A stretch of 64,000 nt of DNA from Lysobacter sp. TY2-98 (GTDB lineage: Bacteria > Pseudomonadota > Gammaproteobacteria > Xanthomonadales > Xanthomonadaceae). The notes beneath the pieces were generated by a model. The model was not told the DNA's origin, ran no database searches, and saw only the letters and a list, made by a program, of their open reading frames with translations. The stretch's first letter is position 1; each line of letters begins with the position of its first letter. The position numbers and the translations under genes were made by a program. The stretch lies in assembly GCF_003367355.1 (NCBI RefSeq), contig NZ_CP031413.1:2746001-2810000 (forward strand), in the 5' to 3' direction. This document shows positions 4,475 through 13,723 of the stretch, piece by piece.

Positions 4475-4502
4475 TTGACCTGTCACGCCACGGGGCTACC
4501 TT
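4475..4502 (+). promoter_or_regulatory. Candidate sigma-70 promoter for the sigma-54 activator gene
   Basis: TTGACC at 4475-4480 and TACCTT at 4497-4502 are separated by 16 bases and lie about 38 bases before the regulator's start codon. The -35 box matches five of six consensus bases; the -10 box is weaker. No sigma-54-type -24/-12 element was seen here, so the activator itself is probably made from a housekeeping promoter. Confidence 0.45.
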
Positions 4503-4539
4503 GGTCGTCCGGTGCGTGGGGCGCCGACAGGAGTCGGAC

Positions 4540-6021
<1,482 letters not shown>

Positions 6022-7365
6022 TCAGAACGCGCGCGAACCGCGCAGCGAGAACACGAAGTTCGGCGCGTCCGGCGTGAGGCCGGCGGCGAGCTGGCCGTTG
6101 AGCGTCCAGCCCGACGGCAGCACGTAACTCGTGCCGAGGTTGAGCGTGGTCGCGTTGCTGGAGCTGCCCGGAATGCGCACCGACTTCGACTCCGGTGCGC
6201 GCGTATGCGTGGCCGACTGCGCCGCGCTCGCCACGCTCATGCTGATCGCCGCGCGATCGTTGAGCGCGACCGCGACGCCCCCGCTGAGGTTGAACATGTG
6301 GCCGAGGAAGACTTCCGCCGGCTGCACGCTGCCCACCACCGGCGAGATGTCGGCGAAGTCTTCCGACTTGTTCCAGGTGTAGCCGATGTTGCCGAACAGG
6401 ATCACCGGGTCGTAGGTGCGCAGCACCGAGACGTTGCCGGTCGCGCTCCACACGCCGGTGCCGGTGGGTAGCGTTTCCGGCACGTTGAGGTTGCTGTTGT
6501 TGCCGTCGGCCTGGATGACCTTGAGTCCGAACGGATCGTGGCCGGTCGGCGCGCGCACGCGCAGGCTGGCGACGACGTCGGGATGCGTCGCCGACTCCTT
6601 CACGAGCTGGTAGTACGCGGCGACGCTCGCATCGCCGATGCCGCTCGCACGCACCTTCACTTCGGTCAGCGACGTCGCGGCGCCACCTGCGCCACCGCTG
6701 ACGAAGCGCGTCTCGCGCGTCACCCACGGCAGGTCCGCTTCCAGGCTCAGGCGATCGGTGATGCCGTAGCGACCGGTAAGGTCGAACGTGCCGATCGACG
6801 CCTTGTTCTGGTCGATGTTGATCGTGCCGAGGAAGATCGCATCGAGCGCGAGGAAGCCGCTCAACGTCAATGCGCGACGGTCGTAGTAGCTGTAGCTCAT
6901 GCCCGCATCGAGCGTGAACTTGCGCTCGAACAGTGGCGCGTGTTCGCGCACGACCAGCGTCTTCTCCTGCTGGCGACGCGCCTCGTCCTCGTCGCGCTGC
7001 GTCTGCCCGACCTGCAAGGGTTGCTGTTCGCTCGGCGGTGGCGGCGTCGACTTCTCGCGCGCGATGCGCGCGGTATCGACCGGCGGCGGCACCGCGGTCT
7101 GCGGCCCACCTTCGCCCGTGAGACCACGGCCACGCAGTTGCTGCAGCTGGAGCTCTTCGACCTGCGCGCGCAGCCACGAGATCTCCGCGTCCTGCGCGTC
7201 GATCTTGGCGGTGAGGGCGCTCAGCTTGGCATCGATGTCCGAGGCCGCGGCGGGTGCCGCGCTCTGCGGATCGGCGAAGGCGAGGGGGCTGGCGAGTGCG
7301 AGGGCGAGTGCAGCGGGGAGGACACGGGCAGACAGGCGCGGCGAGCGCTTCGGGTGCGACGGCAT
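6022..7365 (-). CDS. FapF-like outer-membrane amyloid secretion pore
   Basis: Probable outer-membrane beta-barrel that exports amyloid subunits. The 447 residues start with a signal peptide (LPAALALALASPLAFA, cleavage near residue 31). A heptad-patterned coiled coil follows at about 43-78 (IDAKLSALTAKIDAQDAEIS), then a proline-rich linker. From about residue 145 the protein consists of alternating amphipathic strands and ends in phenylalanine, as outer-membrane barrels do. The order coiled coil, linker, barrel is the architecture of Pseudomonas FapF. Ribosome-binding site AAGGA lies seven bases before ATG 7365. It is the last gene of the operon, as fapF is in Pseudomonas, 25 bases after the FapE-like gene. 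An unrelated generic transporter (MetA-pathway phenol degradation-like barrel) is the main alternative reading; gene context favours FapF. Confidence 0.8.
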   Translation of the reverse strand: MPSHPKRSPRLSARVLPAALALALASPLAFADPQSAAPAAASDIDAKLSALTAKIDAQDAEISWLRAQVEELQLQQLRGRGLTGEGGPQTAVPPPVDTARIAREKSTPPPPSEQQPLQVGQTQRDEDEARRQQEKTLVVREHAPLFERKFTLDAGMSYSYYDRRALTLSGFLALDAIFLGTINIDQNKASIGTFDLTGRYGITDRLSLEADLPWVTRETRFVSGGAGGAATSLTEVKVRASGIGDASVAAYYQLVKESATHPDVVASLRVRAPTGHDPFGLKVIQADGNNSNLNVPETLPTGTGVWSATGNVSVLRTYDPVILFGNIGYTWNKSEDFADISPVVGSVQPAEVFLGHMFNLSGGVAVALNDRAAISMSVASAAQSATHTRAPESKSVRIPGSSSNATTLNLGTSYVLPSGWTLNGQLAAGLTPDAPNFVFSLRGSRAF

Positions 7366-7390
7366 TCTTCGATCCTTGATGCGGCTGCGG

Positions 7391-8158
7391 TCAGTGGCGC
7401 AGTCCGGACACGGCCGAAAGCGCCTGTTGGATGCCCAGCTGCTGCACCGCCGACGCCGGCAGGGCCGACGTCATCATCTGCAGATGCAGGGCATTACTGG
7501 CGGTGAAGCCGTCCCCGGCGATCTGCCCGATCTGCGTGATCCGGCCCGACGCGCCCGGCGTCACCTGCTGGCCGATGGTAGCGCCTGGCGCGACGAGTCC
7601 AAGCTGCACCCCGCCGCCGACGAAACTGACCTGCGCCTGCAGGGCCCCATCCTGGGCCTGCGCGCTCGACGCACCGTTGAAGCCCGACGGCGCCGCGGGG
7701 TTGCTGCCCAGCTGCACGATGGTGAGGTTGCCCATGCGATTGCCGTCGCCCGCGATCTGCGTGATCTGGCCGATGCCGTCGACGTGGATCTGCTCGCCAC
7801 CGGTGGCGATGTTGTTCGACACCGGCGCGCTGCCGTTGCCCGCGCTCGCGCTGGCATGGCTGTCGACCTGCACGTCGTAGCCGTTGCCGGTCTTCTGCAC
7901 GTACAGCGAGCCGACCGCGGTGGCGGTGCCACCCTGCGCGGTGGCGAGCTGCGAGACCAGGTCGATGCGCACGCCGACCAGCATGTCGGCGCCGTAGTAC
8001 TTGCCGGTCATCGTGCCGAGCGCGGCGTCATCGACGACTTCGACACGCAGCGGCGTGTTGTTCACCGGCGGAGAAGGTGGCAGGGCGAATGCCGGACCGG
8101 CACCCGCCACTGCCGCGAAGGCCATGAAAACAGCGTGGGGGAGAAAGCGGTGTTCCAT
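7391..8158 (-). CDS. FapE-like secreted amyloid accessory protein
   Basis: A 255-residue secreted protein with a signal peptide (about residues 1-26, ending AGAGPAFA). It has no cysteine and is rich in Gly, Ala, Gln, Asn and Thr. Two diverged repeats of the amyloid type are visible near the middle and C-terminus (ITQIAGDGNRMGN and GQIAGDGFTASN), which resemble the NxAAGxGNxxxN core of the subunit genes. Position between the C39 protease and the FapF-like pore is exactly that of fapE in Pseudomonas, whose product is an extracellular minor fibre component. Start at ATG 8158 is supported by GAGGG just upstream. The FapE assignment rests mainly on gene order and repeat traces. Confidence 0.65.
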   Translation of the reverse strand: MEHRFLPHAVFMAFAAVAGAGPAFALPPSPPVNNTPLRVEVVDDAALGTMTGKYYGADMLVGVRIDLVSQLATAQGGTATAVGSLYVQKTGNGYDVQVDSHASASAGNGSAPVSNNIATGGEQIHVDGIGQITQIAGDGNRMGNLTIVQLGSNPAAPSGFNGASSAQAQDGALQAQVSFVGGGVQLGLVAPGATIGQQVTPGASGRITQIGQIAGDGFTASNALHLQMMTSALPASAVQQLGIQQALSAVSGLRH

Positions 8159-8187
8159 GGAGCCCTCGAAATCGATTCTTTGCGACG

Positions 8188-8892
8188 TCAGAACAGGTCG
8201 GCGCGGACGAGGCCGAGTTCGACCACCGGCACCGGCATCGAGGCCTCGGTCAGCGCATCGCCGCGACGCGCAAGCGCGATCGACTGACGACCGTTGACGA
8301 GGTACGAGCGCGCATCGAGCGGCTTGTCGCCGACCACCGCGAGCACGATGCCGTTCCAACCCTTGACGAATTCCTGCTCGTTCATCACGCGATGACCGAG
8401 CGCCGGATCGGCGACGAAGACACGCCCGGCCTGGGCGCCCTTCACCACCACGAAATGCTTGTAGCCCTTGAGGTCGAGCAGCGCGATCACCGGCATCTGC
8501 AGGCGATACAACGCACCGGCATCGATGCGGAAGCCATGCGCACGGAAGCCCTCGAGGCCTTCGACGTAATGCTTCATGTCGAGCATCGAGAACCCGCTGC
8601 GCACGATCTCCTTCGGATCATTGCCGACCAGCATGCTGCGGATCATGTGCGGCTCGTCGACGTCCATGCCGTAGCCGTAGCGCAGCACGCTCGCGAGCGC
8701 CGCGGAGCCGCAGCTGAAGTCGTATTGCTGACGCACCATGTCGCGATAGCGCAGGTCGCGCAGCGTGGTCACCGGCTTGTCCAGCGGTGCACCGTCGACG
8801 ATGTTCGCCATCGACACGTTCGACCCCGCCTGCGCAGGCAGCGCGAACGCGGCGAACAGTGCGGCGGACATCAGGAGCGGAATGCGCGACAT
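8188..8892 (-). CDS. FapD-like C39 family cysteine protease, periplasmic
   Basis: A papain-like peptidase of family C39 without the ABC transporter that normally accompanies it. The 234 residues begin with a signal peptide (about 1-22, ending LPAQA). The catalytic cysteine is Cys61 in QQYDFSCGSAALAS, His146 is in GYKHFVVVKG, and Asp162 is in VFVADPALGH. Cys61 is the only cysteine in the mature protein. Stand-alone exported C39 peptidases are the hallmark of FapD, needed for Fap fibre formation in Pseudomonas. Start at ATG 8892 has GGAG five bases upstream. The gene follows the amyloid subunits after an 83-base gap holding a strong hairpin, and precedes the FapE-like gene by 29 bases. Confidence 0.85.
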   Translation of the reverse strand: MSRIPLLMSAALFAAFALPAQAGSNVSMANIVDGAPLDKPVTTLRDLRYRDMVRQQYDFSCGSAALASVLRYGYGMDVDEPHMIRSMLVGNDPKEIVRSGFSMLDMKHYVEGLEGFRAHGFRIDAGALYRLQMPVIALLDLKGYKHFVVVKGAQAGRVFVADPALGHRVMNEQEFVKGWNGIVLAVVGDKPLDARSYLVNGRQSIALARRGDALTEASMPVPVVELGLVRADLF

Positions 8893-8908
8893 GACTTCTC
8901 CGGAGAAG

Positions 8909-8940
8909 CGCGGTGGCCGGCGTGGCGTCCGGCCACCGCG
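8909..8940 (-). promoter_or_regulatory. Perfect 12-bp hairpin between amyloid subunit and protease genes
   Basis: CGCGGTGGCCGG at 8909-8920 pairs perfectly with 8929-8940 around an 8-base loop. On the operon's strand no run of T follows, so it is not a full intrinsic terminator. It ends about 17 bases before the protease start codon. A stem of this strength could protect the 3' end of the subunit messages or cause partial termination, giving more subunit than secretion machinery. Confidence 0.7.
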
Positions 8941-8975
8941 TTTACGACGTGAACGACTTGCTTGGGTGGAACGAA

Positions 8976-9743
8976 TTACGGACCGTCGACGGCCGAAGCG
9001 ATCGACAGGCCGTTGTGCTGCGCGTTGCCGACGCCCGCGGCGACGTTGACGCCGATGTTGCCCTGCGCGCCGTACAGCGCGTTGCCGCCGAGCGTGGCGT
9101 AGACGTCGAGGTCGCTGAACGACCACGTGTCGGAGTTCAGCTCGTTGCCGAGGGTGAGCTGCGCGCTGGCCGAGGTGGCGATCGCGTAGCGGCCCGAGGT
9201 GTTGACCGAACCCGTCATCGTGTTGCCCTGCGTGTTGCCCACGCCGGCCGCCACGTTCACGCCGATGTTGCCGCGCGACAGCGCGAGCGCGTTGCCGGCC
9301 ATTTCAGCGGTGTAGTTGGTGTCGATGTCGGACGTCTCGGCGTAGTTGCCTTCGACGATCTGCAGCGACGTGCCCATCGCGGTGGCGAACACCTTGCCGG
9401 CGTCGACCGACGACAGCGCGGCGTCGTTGGCCTGCTCGTTGCCGACGCCCGCCGACACGTTCACGCCGATGTTGCCCTGCGCGCCGAACAGCGCGCTGTC
9501 GCCGAACTTGGCGTAGTGGTCGCCGTCGCCGTACGAGGCGTTGAGGACGTTTTCCTGCGTCTGGTCGGCAACCGCGGCCGACTTGCTCGACACTTCGAAC
9601 GCGCCGAACGCGAGCACGAGCGCGTCGGTCTCGGCGATGTCGGCGGAGACGGTCAGGTTGTGGATTTCGGTGTCGCCGAAGGCGAACGCGGGGGAGGCGA
9701 CGGCGACGAGGCCGATGGCCAGCAGCGAATGACGAAGCTTCAT
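8976..9743 (-). CDS. Fap-type amyloid subunit, second tandem paralog (FapB/FapC-like)
   Basis: A 255-residue secreted repeat protein, probable structural subunit of an extracellular functional amyloid. Signal peptide about residues 1-21 (AVASPAFA). Three imperfect repeats start near residues 83, 151 and 221, each with the core GNIGVNVAAGVGNxQxN, separated by Ser/Thr/Asn-rich linkers of about 40 residues. A conserved block SSKSAAVADQTQEN precedes repeat 1. There is no cysteine, so the CxxC motif reported for Pseudomonas Fap subunits is absent. The C-terminus is identical in type to the paralog just upstream (IASAVDGP), which points to tandem duplication. Start ATG 9743 lies 32 bases after the paralog's stop, with AAGGACATCACC upstream. 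Confidence 0.85.
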   Translation of the reverse strand: MKLRHSLLAIGLVAVASPAFAFGDTEIHNLTVSADIAETDALVLAFGAFEVSSKSAAVADQTQENVLNASYGDGDHYAKFGDSALFGAQGNIGVNVSAGVGNEQANDAALSSVDAGKVFATAMGTSLQIVEGNYAETSDIDTNYTAEMAGNALALSRGNIGVNVAAGVGNTQGNTMTGSVNTSGRYAIATSASAQLTLGNELNSDTWSFSDLDVYATLGGNALYGAQGNIGVNVAAGVGNAQHNGLSIASAVDGP

Positions 9744-9775
9744 GGTGATGTCCTTTTTCTGGAAGTCGTAGTGGA

Positions 9776-10537
9776 TTACGGGCCGTCGACCGCGGAGGCG
9801 ATGGCGAGACCGTTGTGCTGGACGTTGCCGACGCCGGCCGCGATGTTCACGCCGATGTTGCCCTGCGCGCCGGAAAGCGCGTTGCCACCGAGAACGGCGA
9901 ACGTGTCGAGGTCGTAGTAGGTGATCAGCTCGTTGTAGCCGGCGCCCTGGTAGCTGGCCGACGACGCGATCGCATAGCGACCCGAGGTGTTGACCGAACC
10001 GGCCATCGTGTTGCCCTGCGCGTTGCCGACGCCGCCGGCGACGTTCACGCCGATGTTGCCGCGCGCATTGGCGAGCGCGTAGCCGTTCATCACGGCGCTG
10101 TAGTAGCCGTCCGTGGGCGACGCGGAACCGCCGAGGTTGCCTTCGGTCAGCTGCGCCGACGTGGCCATCGCGGTGGCGAACACTCGGCCGGCGTCGACCG
10201 ACGACAGCGCGGCGTCGTTCGCCTGCTCGTTGCCCACGCCCGCGGCGACGTTCACGCCGATGTTGCCCTGCGCGTTGCGCAGCGCGTTGCCGTTGAAGTC
10301 GGCGGCATGCGAGCCGTCGCCGATCGAGTAGTTGCTGATCGATTCCTGCGTCTGGTCGGCAACCGCAGCCGACTTGCTGGAGACGCTGATGTCGCCGTAC
10401 ACGTCGACGAAGCCGAGCGTGATCGCGTAGTCGGTGGAATCGGTGTAGTTGAAGATCGTCGCGTCGCCGTAAGCGAAGGCGGGGCTGGCGAACAGTGCGC
10501 TGACGGTCAGCGCGAGAAGCGTGCGGTGCAACTTCAT
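9776..10537 (-). CDS. Fap-type amyloid subunit, first tandem paralog (FapB/FapC-like)
   Basis: A 253-residue secreted repeat protein, paralog of the next gene. Signal peptide about residues 1-22 (ALFASPAFA). Three imperfect repeats begin near residues 84, 153 and 219 (cores GNIGVNVAAGVGNEQAN, GNIGVNVAGGVGNAQGN, GNIGVNIAAGVGNVQHN), spaced about 68 residues apart. The two linkers differ much more from the paralog than the repeats do. No cysteine is present. Three repeats with variable linkers is the architecture of FapB and FapC, of which one nucleates and one forms the fibre bulk; which paralog does which cannot be told here. Start ATG 10537 has AGGAGAGAGACATC upstream. Confidence 0.85.
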   Translation of the reverse strand: MKLHRTLLALTVSALFASPAFAYGDATIFNYTDSTDYAITLGFVDVYGDISVSSKSAAVADQTQESISNYSIGDGSHAADFNGNALRNAQGNIGVNVAAGVGNEQANDAALSSVDAGRVFATAMATSAQLTEGNLGGSASPTDGYYSAVMNGYALANARGNIGVNVAGGVGNAQGNTMAGSVNTSGRYAIASSASYQGAGYNELITYYDLDTFAVLGGNALSGAQGNIGVNIAAGVGNVQHNGLAIASAVDGP

Positions 10538-10590
10538 GATGTCTCTCTCCTTTCGACGTGGGATTTCTGTTTCTGCCTAGCTGCCGTGGG

Positions 10591-11184
10591 TTACGGCGTG
10601 CCCCCCGGCAGTTGGAGCACGATGGCGTTCGCCGACGCATTGCCGACGCCCGCGGTCTGGTTGATCTGCAGCACACCGGTCGGTGCCGCGATCGCGCCCG
10701 CATCGATGCGCGCTTCGCGCGTGCCGACCGGCGTTGAAGAGGAAGTCGTCGTCGACGCCGGCGCGGCAGTGGCCGCGAGCGCGGATTCGTCGACCGACTG
10801 CGCGAACGTGACACCGGCGGCGGTGCCGATCGCGATGAGGTTGGCCTGCGCATTCGCGTGGCCGGCGACCTGGTTGAGCCCGACCACGCCGTTCGCGTTA
10901 TCGAGCGCACTGCCACTGATCGCCGCGCGTGCATCGCGCGCGAGATCCGCGCCGGTGGTGTCGACGCTCTGTGCACCGAACGCCTGCGCGAGCGCGGTGT
11001 CGCCGACCGCGATCGCGCGCAGGTTGCTCTGCGCGTTGCCGACGCCGGCGGCGACGTTGAGGCTGGCGACACCGGAGACATCGGCCGCGGCATGGCCGTC
11101 GATGCGGCTGTCGTCGCGCGACTGGGCGAACGCGGCCGGCGCGAGTGCGGACAGCAGCAGGACGAGACCGATGCGGCGGCTCAC
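10591..11184 (-). CDS. Secreted minor amyloid-like repeat protein
   Basis: A 197-residue secreted protein with signal peptide about residues 1-20 (APAAFA). Three short, diverged copies of the amyloid motif start near residues 37, 98 and 169 (SLNVAAGVGNAQSN, GLNQVAGHANAQAN, QINQTAGVGNASAN), separated by alanine/threonine-rich linkers. No cysteine. Probably a nucleator or minor fibre component; position before the two main subunits suits a FapB-like role, but it could be an additional subunit with no Pseudomonas counterpart. Its GTG start at 11184 overlaps the stop of the preceding gene (GTGA), so translation is probably coupled. Confidence 0.75.
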   Translation of the reverse strand: MSRRIGLVLLLSALAPAAFAQSRDDSRIDGHAAADVSGVASLNVAAGVGNAQSNLRAIAVGDTALAQAFGAQSVDTTGADLARDARAAISGSALDNANGVVGLNQVAGHANAQANLIAIGTAAGVTFAQSVDESALAATAAPASTTTSSSTPVGTREARIDAGAIAAPTGVLQINQTAGVGNASANAIVLQLPGGTP

Positions 11185-11690
11185 GGGCCGACTCCGATCT
11201 TGCTCGCGCGCATCGCCGCGTTGGTCACGGTGTCGGCGATGCCGGCGGTCGCGCCGATGATCGTGCTGCCGATGGTCCCGCTCATGCCCAAGGGCGCCGC
11301 GCCCGCGCCGACCGGTGCGCCGCCGCGGAGCTCGACGGGCTCGCCGCCCACCATGCGCGGCTCACGGGCGACGCGGGCGTCGAACCCGGTCGGTGCGGTG
11401 TCGCCCAGCGCACCGTCACCGACCAGCGTGTCGAGAACCCCACCGAGCGCCTTGCCGAAGACCTGGCCCGGGAACACCGTGGCGGTGACGCGCGCGGGGT
11501 TGTCCGTGGTGCTGGGAAGACCGCGGTAGGCGATGCGCGGATTGACGTCGCGCACGATCACCATGGTCTGGTCCTGCGCCGCGTCCATGCCCGTGGGGGA
11601 GGGGGCGCCATCGCCCGCGCAGGCCGGACCCGCCGCGAGGCACGCGGTGGCGAAGGTCAGCGTCGGCAGGACGAGGCGGGGCAGGGACAC
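11181..11690 (-). CDS. Secreted first gene of the amyloid operon, possible FapA equivalent
   Basis: A 169-residue protein with a signal peptide (about residues 1-25, ending GPACAG). The mature part contains ARVTATVFPGQVFGKALGG in the middle and a glycine/alanine/threonine-rich C-terminus (GTIGSTIIGATAGIAD). I do not recognise a catalytic domain. It occupies the first place in the operon, where Pseudomonas has fapA, a periplasmic chaperone-like factor; the link is positional, not proven. GTG start at 11690 is supported by GGAG seven bases upstream and by the sigma-54 promoter ending about 30 bases before it. It overlaps the next gene by four bases. Confidence 0.7.
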   Translation of the reverse strand: MSLPRLVLPTLTFATACLAAGPACAGDGAPSPTGMDAAQDQTMVIVRDVNPRIAYRGLPSTTDNPARVTATVFPGQVFGKALGGVLDTLVGDGALGDTAPTGFDARVAREPRMVGGEPVELRGGAPVGAGAAPLGMSGTIGSTIIGATAGIADTVTNAAMRASKIGVGP

Positions 11691-11720: not shown

Positions 11721-11737
11721 AGCCAGTCCCGTGCCAA
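11721..11737 (-). promoter_or_regulatory. Sigma-54 promoter of the amyloid operon
   Basis: On the minus strand the sequence TTGGCACGGGACTGGCT matches the sigma-54 consensus YTGGCACGRNNNTTGCW at every fixed position but one (G for T in the -12 half). The invariant GG of -24 and GC of -12 are present with correct spacing. The predicted transcript start is near 11710, about 20 bases before the first gene's GTG. Confidence 0.8.
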
Positions 11738-11811
11738 CTTTTTAAGTGATTGTTCTGGAAGGTGTTTTTCCGGTGAAGACCTTGAGCCCTGCGTCGCCGT
11801 CGGGCACAAAC

Positions 11812-11827
11812 GTTTCATTCCTGAAAC
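11812..11827. promoter_or_regulatory. Candidate upstream activator site (palindrome)
   Basis: GTTTCA-TTCC-TGAAAC is a perfect 6-bp inverted repeat with a 4-base spacer. It lies about 80 bases upstream of the -24 element, the normal distance for the binding site of a sigma-54 activator with a Fis-type DNA-binding domain. Only one copy was found nearby. Confidence 0.5.
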
Positions 11828-12024
11828 ACGCGGGCGGTGGATATGCGCGACATCGGCGGCGAGCTGGCGCGGTTGCCGTAGCCCGCGCCCTCGTAGAGCG
11901 CCGCTGGGCAAGGCTTTCCGCCCGCCCGACGGCGCGACCCGGGCCGCTCAGCGGCCGTGTTTCATCCACGCAACCGCCGCCTGCGTGCGAGGATCAGCCC
12001 CCGCCCACCGCCGTCCGACCGCGC

Positions 12025-12741
12025 ATGACCGACCACGACTCCGCCGTGCCCGACTTCATCCACGTGGTCGAAAACGCCCTCGATCCGGCTTGGTGCGCGC
12101 AGGTGGTCGAGCGCTTCAGCCGCGGCAACGGGCACGAGCCCGGCCGCGTCGGCGGGGGCGTGTTCCCCGACATGAAGGACAGCCTCGACCTCGCCATCTC
12201 CACGCGCGAGGACTGGCGCGATGTCGCCAACACGCTCAACGAAGCGGTCGTCGCCGGCCTGCGCGAGTACGTGCGGCGCTGGCCGCATGCGGTGGTCGCC
12301 CCGCTGATGCTGGAGATGCAGGACGGCGACAAGCGCCATCGCCTCACCAGCGAACGCCTGCAGGCCATGGACGACGCGGCGCTGACGCCACTGCTGATGC
12401 AGCTGTTCCGTCCCGGCACGATCAACCTGCAGCGCTACACCGCCGGCCGCGGCGGCTATCCGTACTGGCACTGCGAGCTGATGCCGCGCGATCCCAGCGC
12501 GGAGACGCTGCATCGCCACCTGCTGTGGACGGTCTATCTCAACGACGGCTTCAGCGAAGGCGAAACCGAGTTCCTTTACCAGCGTCGCAAGATCGCGCCG
12601 AAGACCGGCGCGCTGTTGATCGCGCCCGCGGCGTTCACGCATACGCACCGCGGCAATCGTCCGCAGGGCGGCGACAAGATGATCGCGACCAGCTGGATTC
12701 TCTTCCAACGTGCGGAAGCGCTGTTCGGTGCGGGCGGATGA
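12025..12741 (+). CDS. 2OG-Fe(II) oxygenase family protein
   Basis: A 238-residue cytoplasmic protein with the fold signature of prolyl-hydroxylase-like 2-oxoglutarate/iron oxygenases. The iron ligands are probably His and Glu in YPYWHCELMPRD and His in TFTHTHRGNRP, with a following Arg/Lys for 2-oxoglutarate. The N-terminal FIHVVENALDPAWCAQVVERF segment is typical of this group. Start chosen at ATG 12025 (MTDHDSAVPDF); the open frame extends far upstream but only into non-conserved, regulatory sequence. Its stop overlaps the next gene's ATG (ATGA), so the two form an operon. Substrate unknown. Confidence 0.8.
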   Translation: MTDHDSAVPDFIHVVENALDPAWCAQVVERFSRGNGHEPGRVGGGVFPDMKDSLDLAISTREDWRDVANTLNEAVVAGLREYVRRWPHAVVAPLMLEMQDGDKRHRLTSERLQAMDDAALTPLLMQLFRPGTINLQRYTAGRGGYPYWHCELMPRDPSAETLHRHLLWTVYLNDGFSEGETEFLYQRRKIAPKTGALLIAPAAFTHTHRGNRPQGGDKMIATSWILFQRAEALFGAGG

Positions 12742-13070: not shown

Positions 13071-13295
13071 TCAGCTTCGTCGCGCGACGACGAAGCATGC
13101 CGCCATGACGCACGCCACTTCGACCGCAACGAAACACCAGGTCGCCGGCCCGGAATGCCCGATCGATTCGACGCCGAAGGCTGCCTCGATCCACCGCCAC
13201 AGCGGTGCGAGCAGGAAGGTCACGATGAACGCGATCGGCAGCGTGACGAGCAGTGCGGCGAACACGGGCAATACCCGCGCCGCGCGTGACGTCAC
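13071..13295 (-). CDS. Small two-helix inner-membrane protein
   Basis: A 74-residue protein with two membrane-spanning helices (about residues 9-31 and 51-69), separated by a short loop. No family recognised. Its ATG overlaps the stop of the response-regulator gene upstream, so it is the last gene of a kinase-regulator-membrane protein operon. It is convergent with the small gene ending at 13067, three bases away. Confidence 0.6.
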   Translation of the reverse strand: MTSRAARVLPVFAALLVTLPIAFIVTFLLAPLWRWIEAAFGVESIGHSGPATWCFVAVEVACVMAACFVVARRS

Positions 13296-13723
13296 GGCCG
13301 CGAGTGGTTGAGCACCAGCCAGTACAGGCCGACCTGCTTCACCGCCCAGACGAACTGTTCGAAGTCGACGGGCTTCTGGATGTAGCTGTTCACGCCGAGC
13401 GCGTAGGTGGCTTCGACGTCGAACGGTTCGGTGCTGGTCGTCAGTACGACGACGGGCAGCGAGCGCGTCGCTTCGTTGCCGCGGATCGCCTGCAGCACTT
13501 CGCGGCCATCCACTTTCGGCAGGTTGAGATCGAGCAGCACCAGCGACGGAAGATCGGCCGGATCGCGGTCGGCGAAACGTCCGCGGGCGAAGAGGTAGTC
13601 GAGTGCTTCGGCGCCGTCGCCGACGACCGCGAGCTGGTTGGCGATCTTGGCCTCGTCGAACGCGAGCCGTGTGAGCTCGACGTCGTCCGGGTTGTCCTCG
13701 ACCAGCAGGATATCTTTGTGCAT
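13292..13723 (-). CDS. Single-domain response regulator (CheY/Rcp1 type)
   Basis: A 143-residue receiver domain with no output domain. The acidic pocket is in ILLVEDNPDDVELT, the phosphoacceptor aspartate in LVLLDLNLPKVDG (about residue 65), the Thr/Ser switch in VVVLTTST and the lysine in YIQKPVDF. The long loop LDYLFARGRFADRDPADLP is typical of Rcp1-like regulators paired with PAS or phytochrome-type kinases. It starts seven bases after the stop of the kinase gene and is probably its partner. Confidence 0.93.
   Translation of the reverse strand: MHKDILLVEDNPDDVELTRLAFDEAKIANQLAVVGDGAEALDYLFARGRFADRDPADLPSLVLLDLNLPKVDGREVLQAIRGNEATRSLPVVVLTTSTEPFDVEATYALGVNSYIQKPVDFEQFVWAVKQVGLYWLVLNHSRP

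Follow-up and report, generated by a model that had tools for sequence, protein, structure and literature searches.

In a 64,000-nucleotide stretch of Lysobacter sp. TY2-98 DNA (contig NZ_CP031413.1, positions 2,746,001 to 2,810,000; hereafter the window, to which coordinates refer unless stated otherwise), we identified positions 6022-11690, with an estimated probability of about 0.93, as a genuine, complete and intact fapA-B-C-C'-D-E-F functional amyloid operon with BrfA-type control. Seven minus-strand genes with unbroken reading frames fill the interval in the order fapA-B-C-D-E-F with fapC doubled, operon status being predicted from this layout, and the N termini of all seven products appeared signal-peptide-like when read by eye, without a predictor. 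NCBIfam models named every Fap family but FapA, five out of six, and these came in the order expected of a fap locus (E = 3.5e-9 to 7.7e-98); the gene order was kept across Lysobacteraceae, Burkholderiaceae and Pseudomonadaceae. Because of the library E-values and the conservation in genus and family, the operon was considered to lie beyond chance. Judged from the sequence comparisons, this Fap operon is ordinary in kind, complete and conserved, and its control unit is well supported.

Identity of the operon and its subunits

An initial annotation, made from the sequence alone, had placed a Fap-type operon in this interval, and the searches bore it out: models for FapB, FapC, FapD, FapE and FapF matched, as did FapF and FapC chains in the PDB, and the FapF and FapB/C matches and FapF fold that the annotation had named as decisive were found. 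Its seven minus-strand signal-peptide genes, its stand-alone C39 protease (catalytic residues present) and its coiled-coil and beta-barrel pore (architecture predicted) were likewise recovered, and the amyloid repeat that it had reported in four proteins, in full or in traces, was seen in FapB, in both FapC proteins and, as an AGDGN trace, in FapE. The Pseudomonas-like gene order that it had proposed holds from fapA to fapF, save that fapC is present twice; the control unit (sigma-54 promoter and adjacent regulator) was absent from it. One result weighs against the assignment, namely that none of the operon's NCBIfam matches reached the NCBI equivalog cut-off, which is a naming threshold and not a defining trait of Fap. 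No FapB among the 297 family genomes searched reached that cut-off, and 12/12 FapE matches in Pseudomonadaceae did. Weak library matches to ToxA and Phytoreo_P8 fell under their cut-offs and were judged to be chance on low-complexity sequence.

The product of the first gene had no match in the domain libraries scanned, and FapA is often absent from fap systems elsewhere. A model grown from the window fapA picked out the gene that opens the fap loci of Lysobacteraceae and Burkholderiaceae, with a shared block resembling IVxRxVxPRIAYRGVP. Because an earlier model already contained Pseudomonadaceae sequences (E = 2e-10 to 1e-22 after taking them in), the test was repeated with the model free of Pseudomonadaceae; it found the gene before fapB, as the sole match in each, in 8/8 Pseudomonadaceae loci, with E-values of 2.7e-7 to 5.9e-3 among 17495 open reading frames (ORFs) and 7/8 of them under 2e-4. 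In eight further gammaproteobacterial loci the FapA model matched only in L202 (3.4e-10) and, weakly, in L197 (0.004). On these model matches, the first gene of the operon is identified as fapA.

The repeats of FapB are divergent: AAGVGN/TAGVGN could be read by eye, and a regular expression for the FapC-type repeat found none. The two FapC proteins are 67% identical, and FapC matched the solved chain 9nqd at E = 1.6e-15. Each carries three repeats, of which the regular expression found three and two and the sixth (GNIGVNVSAGVGN) was recognized by eye. Among the Lysobacteraceae loci, which form two lineages (see below; the window belongs to lineage I), tandem fapC genes in two to four copies occurred in 16/22 lineage I loci; the remaining 6/22, five of them from genus mates of the window, have a single fapC, as do 9/9 lineage II loci, all 14 tabulated Burkholderiaceae loci (out of 64) and 8/8 Pseudomonadaceae loci. 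A 2025 survey describes fap operon synteny and repeat number as nearly fixed, and the available parts of that survey contain no mention of tandem fapC (PMC12822426). As a separate observation, both window FapC proteins (8976-10537) lack cysteine. A C-terminal CxxC is present in a FapC of 18/22 lineage I loci (the window not among them) and of 6/8 Pseudomonadaceae loci, and in 0/9 lineage II and 0/14 Burkholderiaceae loci.

FapF matched PDB entry 5o65 by sequence at E = 3.9e-73. The initial annotation had proposed structure prediction of the pore, and an AlphaFold2 model of the single chain, built from 28 sequences (mean predicted local distance difference test [pLDDT] score, 72.7), placed a coiled coil at residues 41-79, a barrel from residue 150 and, between the two, a plug helix at 121-141 in which pLDDT fell partly below 50. 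The 18 best PDB fold matches of this model were all FapF chains; for 5o67_B and 5o65_B the template modeling scores were 0.84 and 0.85 by target length, and 0.56 and 0.58 by query length. PF13557 was barely over its cut-off on FapF (22.6 vs 22), a match consistent with the barrel, which has been described as COG4313-like (PMC5557850).

Table 1. Positions of the fap genes and associated features in the window
Feature	Position	Strand	Description	NCBIfam match
brfA-like gene	4501..6021	+	sigma-54 enhancer-binding activator; VpsR domain, AAA+ with GAFTGA, Fis helix-turn-helix; convergent with fapF	
fapF	6022..7365	-	447 amino acids (aa); predicted outer-membrane pore, a beta barrel preceded by coiled coil and plug helix	NF058560 FapF, E 7.7e-98
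fapE	7391..8158	-	255 aa; fibre-associated accessory subunit, predicted FapD substrate	NF058559 FapE, E 3.5e-9 / 4.8e-9
Leader motif in FapE	7997..8029	-	double-glycine-like C39 leader, residues 44-54, DAALGTMTGK/Y; predicted cut after K53	
fapD	8188..8892	-	234 aa; Sec-exported stand-alone C39 cysteine protease	NF058616 FapD, E 1.1e-59
fapC2	8976..9743	-	255 aa; tandem duplicate of fapC1	NF058558 FapC, E 1.7e-23
fapC1	9776..10537	-	253 aa; amyloid subunit, three GNIGVN repeats	NF058558 FapC, E 1.6e-26
fapB	10591..11184	-	197 aa; minor/nucleating amyloid subunit	NF058557 FapB, E 2e-32
fapA	11181..11690	-	169 aa, GTG start; predicted periplasmic chaperone	
Sigma-54-like site	11721..11736	-	TGGCACGGGACTGGCT; promoter-like (-24/-12) site upstream of fapA, 11/12 consensus positions	

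A putative FapD cleavage site in FapE and a possible wider export class

FapD begins with a Sec signal peptide, read by eye, and matches Peptidase_C39 (E = 5.8e-21) and the double-glycine protease domain 6mpz (E = 2e-4); Q55, C61, H146 and D162 are present, as they are in >95% of 51 FapD and of 10 C39 proteases from a second system described below. In work from 2017-2018, FapD and its catalytic Cys were found to be needed for FapC secretion, the FapD substrate was called undetermined, and Fap proteins were said to carry no canonical C39 sequence (PMC5557850, PMC6173800). According to a 2025 review, the presumed targets of FapD processing are the N terminus of FapE and the periplasmic region of FapF (PMC12822426), and N-terminal FapE peptides were missing from the proteomics of Pseudomonas sp. 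UK4 (PMC5557850). No paper naming a FapE cleavage site was found in our search, outside which subscription papers lay.

FapE gave the weakest match of the five Fap families; its alignment shows conserved G/N/Q columns, and a Pseudomonadaceae-free model from the window FapE matched FapE in 8/8 Pseudomonadaceae loci at E = 3.8e-23 or better. C39 leaders carry L at -7, a hydrophobic residue at -4 and G at -2, usually followed by G, A or S at -1, and the window FapE has L47, M50 and G52 at the first three of these positions. Across 87 non-redundant FapE sequences (of 119), G52 (window numbering, -2) was invariant, and K/R53 (-1) and L/M47 (-7) were found in 87/87; D/E44 occurred in 85/87 and Y/F54 in 82/87, and position -4 was Q or A in 42/87. 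Because of the K/R at -1, we call this leader double-glycine-like and not canonical. The leader, L-x-x-phi-x-G-[KR], is carried by all 87. A strict form of the motif was present in 80/87 FapE and in none of 86 FapA, 92 FapB, 81 FapC, 76 FapD and 80 FapF sequences, and the loose form L-x-x-phi-x-G-[KRGAS] was present in 87/87 FapE vs 33.5 expected from shuffles and fell under expectation in FapC and FapD. In an AlphaFold2 model of FapE (mean pLDDT, 69.8), residues 16-42 were under 50, a short helix spanned 44-49 and a coil 50-57 (pLDDT about 50-60), and a beta domain began at 58, so that the motif sits between a disordered N terminus and the beta domain, a plausible place for a cut. That FapD would cut FapE at this double-glycine-like site is, on these alignments and models, somewhat favored, with one residue pair in FapE as the likely FapD target and a testable cleavage site. 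The site may have been overlooked, since a cut after K/R resembles a trypsin cut in mass spectrometry.

The same genome carries a second FapD/FapF-type system outside the window (G000:C1, about 2693959-2698327, equivalent to L013 5960-10328), in which a second FapF (29%; G000:C1:2697275-2698309) lies in an operon with a FapD-like C39 protease and two small Sec proteins. It shares with the window a Sec-exported C39 protease, a FapF-like coiled-coil pore and a FapE-like small protein, and differs in having RGG leaders in both small proteins and an Asn/Gly-rich protein instead of FapB/C; FapA was looked for in this system and none was found. The Asn/Gly-rich protein is exported and 302 aa long; this large protein was seen in 8/10 related loci and is a candidate new secreted fibre or adhesin. 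The canonical leader L-x-x-[LMIY]RGG was present in both small proteins in 20/20 cases (10 loci of 10 family genomes) vs a background of 14/4621 six-frame ORFs. At the leader, the downstream small protein aligned with FapE of lineage II, Pseudomonadaceae and others (hhalign probability 94.6, E = 6.8e-8), compared with probabilities of 0.8-1.6 for the controls FapA, B, C and D; its alignment with FapE of Lysobacteraceae lineage I and Burkholderiaceae was weaker (probability 52.6).

Across 349 Pseudomonadota genomes, the listed FapD-model matches at E <= 1e-12 numbered 47, of which 30 loci were fetched. A C39 gene was found in 29/30 of these (none in L229; the 29 include the window), and a leader-like motif lay within 350 nt after it in 26/29 loci vs 39/390 random anchors; L235, L244 and L248 had no such motif downstream of C39, and L244 has one upstream. 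Fap-type loci among those read RG[RK] or TGK, and the other loci RGG. Taken jointly, these observations tip slightly, at little better than even odds, toward a scheme in which FapE is a FapD substrate cut at L-x-x-phi-x-G-[KR] and Fap is one branch of a wider Pseudomonadota C39/FapF-type export class. Throughout this class a periplasmic C39 protease would free Sec-exported C39-leader proteins for a FapF-type pore, the Fap branch using G-[KR] and the non-Fap branch GG with an unrelated Asn/Gly-rich candidate fibre protein.

Control unit, distribution and two Fap lineages

For the promoter comparison, 90 distinct fapA upstream regions were scored (duplicates and two short regions were dropped) against the sigma-54 consensus, with shuffles in blocks of two bases, and not a full dinucleotide model, as background. 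Scores of at least 10 were obtained for 25/29 Lysobacteraceae and 4/61 Burkholderiaceae regions vs 1.6% of shuffles; Pseudomonadaceae regions scored 9-11, with 4/8 at 10 or above. An activator relative lies convergent and downstream of fapF in 8/8 Pseudomonadaceae loci (42-50% identical to the window protein), and VpsR was over the Pfam cut-off in 6/8 fap-linked activator relatives scanned, comprising 4/4 from Pseudomonadaceae, one from Burkholderiaceae and one of three from lineage II. In P. fluorescens PF07, brfA occupies the same place, and the fapA-E genes are brfA dependent and carry an RpoN promoter (PMC9207406); BrfA has been reported to sense cyclic di-GMP (c-di-GMP) (PMC13101488). By its domains and place the window activator is classed as BrfA type, and by analogy BrfA/RpoN/c-di-GMP control would apply to the window. 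Weighing against this picture, sigma-54 scores were under 10 in 4/29 Lysobacteraceae and 4/8 Pseudomonadaceae regions, Paraburkholderia and Pandoraea were without a clear site (none of the four Burkholderiaceae regions at 10 or above is theirs), and of the lineage II activators one was just under the VpsR cut-off and one had no match at 0.001. Many Paraburkholderia fap operons (L086-L147), themselves without a clear sigma-54 site, have activator relatives on both sides. Beyond fapA lie a 2-oxoglutarate-Fe(II) oxygenase-family gene (11746-12741, plus strand) and a gene for a response-regulator receiver protein (13292-13723, minus strand); both also occur beyond fapA in many lineage I loci.

FapF was found in 7/8 genomes of the genus searched, the miss being an 81% complete genome, and the FapB model matched 81/297 genomes and 11/54 genera of the family. 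In Pseudomonadaceae, Fap searches returned 0/56 in a first genus and 12/59 in the family search. The initial annotation had called the system little described in this group. A 2013 paper had already reported Fap in Xanthomonadales (Stenotrophomonas, Rhodanobacter) (PMC3792158), and 1602 fap clusters were counted in GTDB v226 by a survey of 2025 (PMC12822426). No paper dedicated to Fap in Lysobacter or Xanthomonadaceae was among the literature matches listed, so "little described" may apply to Lysobacter itself; a claim of taxonomic novelty is weak because Fap is a known kind, also from Xanthomonadales.

The window FapF shares 35-36% identity with three FapF proteins from lineage II of its own family and 44-50% with Burkholderiaceae FapF, the closest outside Lysobacteraceae among the 80 loci kept. 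A tree of FapD plus FapF from 60 chosen rows joined lineage I to Pandoraea, Paraburkholderia and Burkholderia, and lineage II to Pseudomonadaceae and others, each grouping at 98/97. L062 (G167), in which fapF at 5656-6965 is split between two frames by decay there or by an assembly error, was dropped from the tree. An approximately unbiased test rejected a single clade for both Lysobacteraceae lineages (p = 4.6e-5), a hypothesis that was named after the tree had been seen. On this phylogeny, Lysobacteraceae carry two non-sister Fap lineages, one of which groups with Burkholderiaceae. The two may derive from transfer or from old duplication with loss, and the direction of any transfer is not fixed because the root of the tree rests on a long outgroup branch.

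Compared with known systems, the window shares with Pseudomonas fapABCDEF (with brfA and RpoN) the same six families in the same order, the FapF fold, a C39 FapD, a sigma-54-like site and a convergent VpsR-domain activator after fapF, whereas its fapC is doubled, its FapC proteins are without the C-terminal CxxC, and its FapD and FapF group with Burkholderiaceae and not Pseudomonadaceae Fap. Burkholderiaceae fap (Pandoraea, Paraburkholderia, Ralstonia) has the same order, including fapA, but one fapC, a rare sigma-54 site and an activator that is often elsewhere or on both sides. Lysobacteraceae lineage II has the order of the window, a sigma-54 site in 6/9 and an activator downstream of fapF in 8/9 loci, but a single, longer fapC and a grouping with Pseudomonadaceae Fap.

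Alternatives, proposed mechanism and significance

The principal competitor to cleavage of FapE is that its motif is a docking or export signal and that FapD acts as protease on the linker of FapF or on a different Fap protein, an account that we regard as possible, if the less favored of the two. It draws on the naming of FapF as a possible FapD target in a 2017 paper (PMC5557850). The results that weigh against the FapE cleavage site belong here as well. C39 leaders seldom have a basic residue at -1, and the K/R in 87/87 FapE thus departs from G, A or S. FapD and GG-type C39 proteases differ at positions 84, 96, 107, 131, 165, 185, 188 and 198, and among FapD residues none was found that is acidic, conserved and absent from GG-type C39 and that could explain K/R at -1. 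The loose motif exceeded shuffles also in FapA (55/86; 28.5 expected), FapF (34/80; 19.1) and, slightly, FapB (48/92; 39.6), and the motif pattern was composed after the FapE sequences had been seen. The FapE model has low confidence in its leader region and gave no PDB fold match at E <= 0.001. Set against the docking account are the confinement of the strict motif to FapE among the Fap sets, the presence of the loose form in every FapE, the alignment of the FapE site with the canonical RGG leaders that lie next to sister C39 proteases, and the position of the site between the disordered N terminus and the beta domain; cleavage of FapE by FapD is preferred.

For the operon as a whole, a looser FapD/FapF-type exporter, Fil-like or like the second system, which would share only protease and pore with Fap and carry other cargo, is scarcely credible. 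FapD and FapF do belong to larger families (PMC3792158), weaker matches were also obtained with the FilB and FilC models, and a second such system exists in the same genome; however, the FapB, FapC and FapE models match, FapA is present, FapC matches solved FapC chains, and the FapD plus FapF tree puts the window inside Fap, apart from the second system at 100/100. The FapB/C, FapA and FapE matches already refute this reading. A decayed or silent remnant, to which the missing C-terminal CxxC of the window FapC might point, is very improbable: no reading frame is broken, the catalytic residues are in place, both the promoter site and the activator show conservation, and the operon is retained in full by relatives. 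A complete and intact Fap operon thus remains the preferred identification.

In the mechanism that we propose, sigma-54 RNA polymerase would transcribe the operon from the site at 11736-11721 when the adjacent BrfA/VpsR-type activator switches it on, probably at high c-di-GMP. FapA-F would be exported by Sec, FapA would keep the subunits unfolded, and periplasmic FapD would remove the FapE N-terminal leader at ...LGTMTGK/YY. A trimeric FapF would then pass FapB, FapE and both FapC proteins to the surface, and there FapC would polymerise into biofilm fibres. We infer chaperoning, export, fibre formation and c-di-GMP control from work on Pseudomonas.

These results assign an already known biofilm amyloid to one particular lineage of Lysobacter. 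The two non-sister Lysobacteraceae Fap lineages fit poorly with a 2013 proposal of largely vertical descent, and the named FapE residue pair addresses the question of the FapD target, reported as unresolved in 2017-2018. The regulator arrangement, which is as at Pseudomonas fap, also suggests that Fap came under c-di-GMP/RpoN control before Pseudomonas arose.

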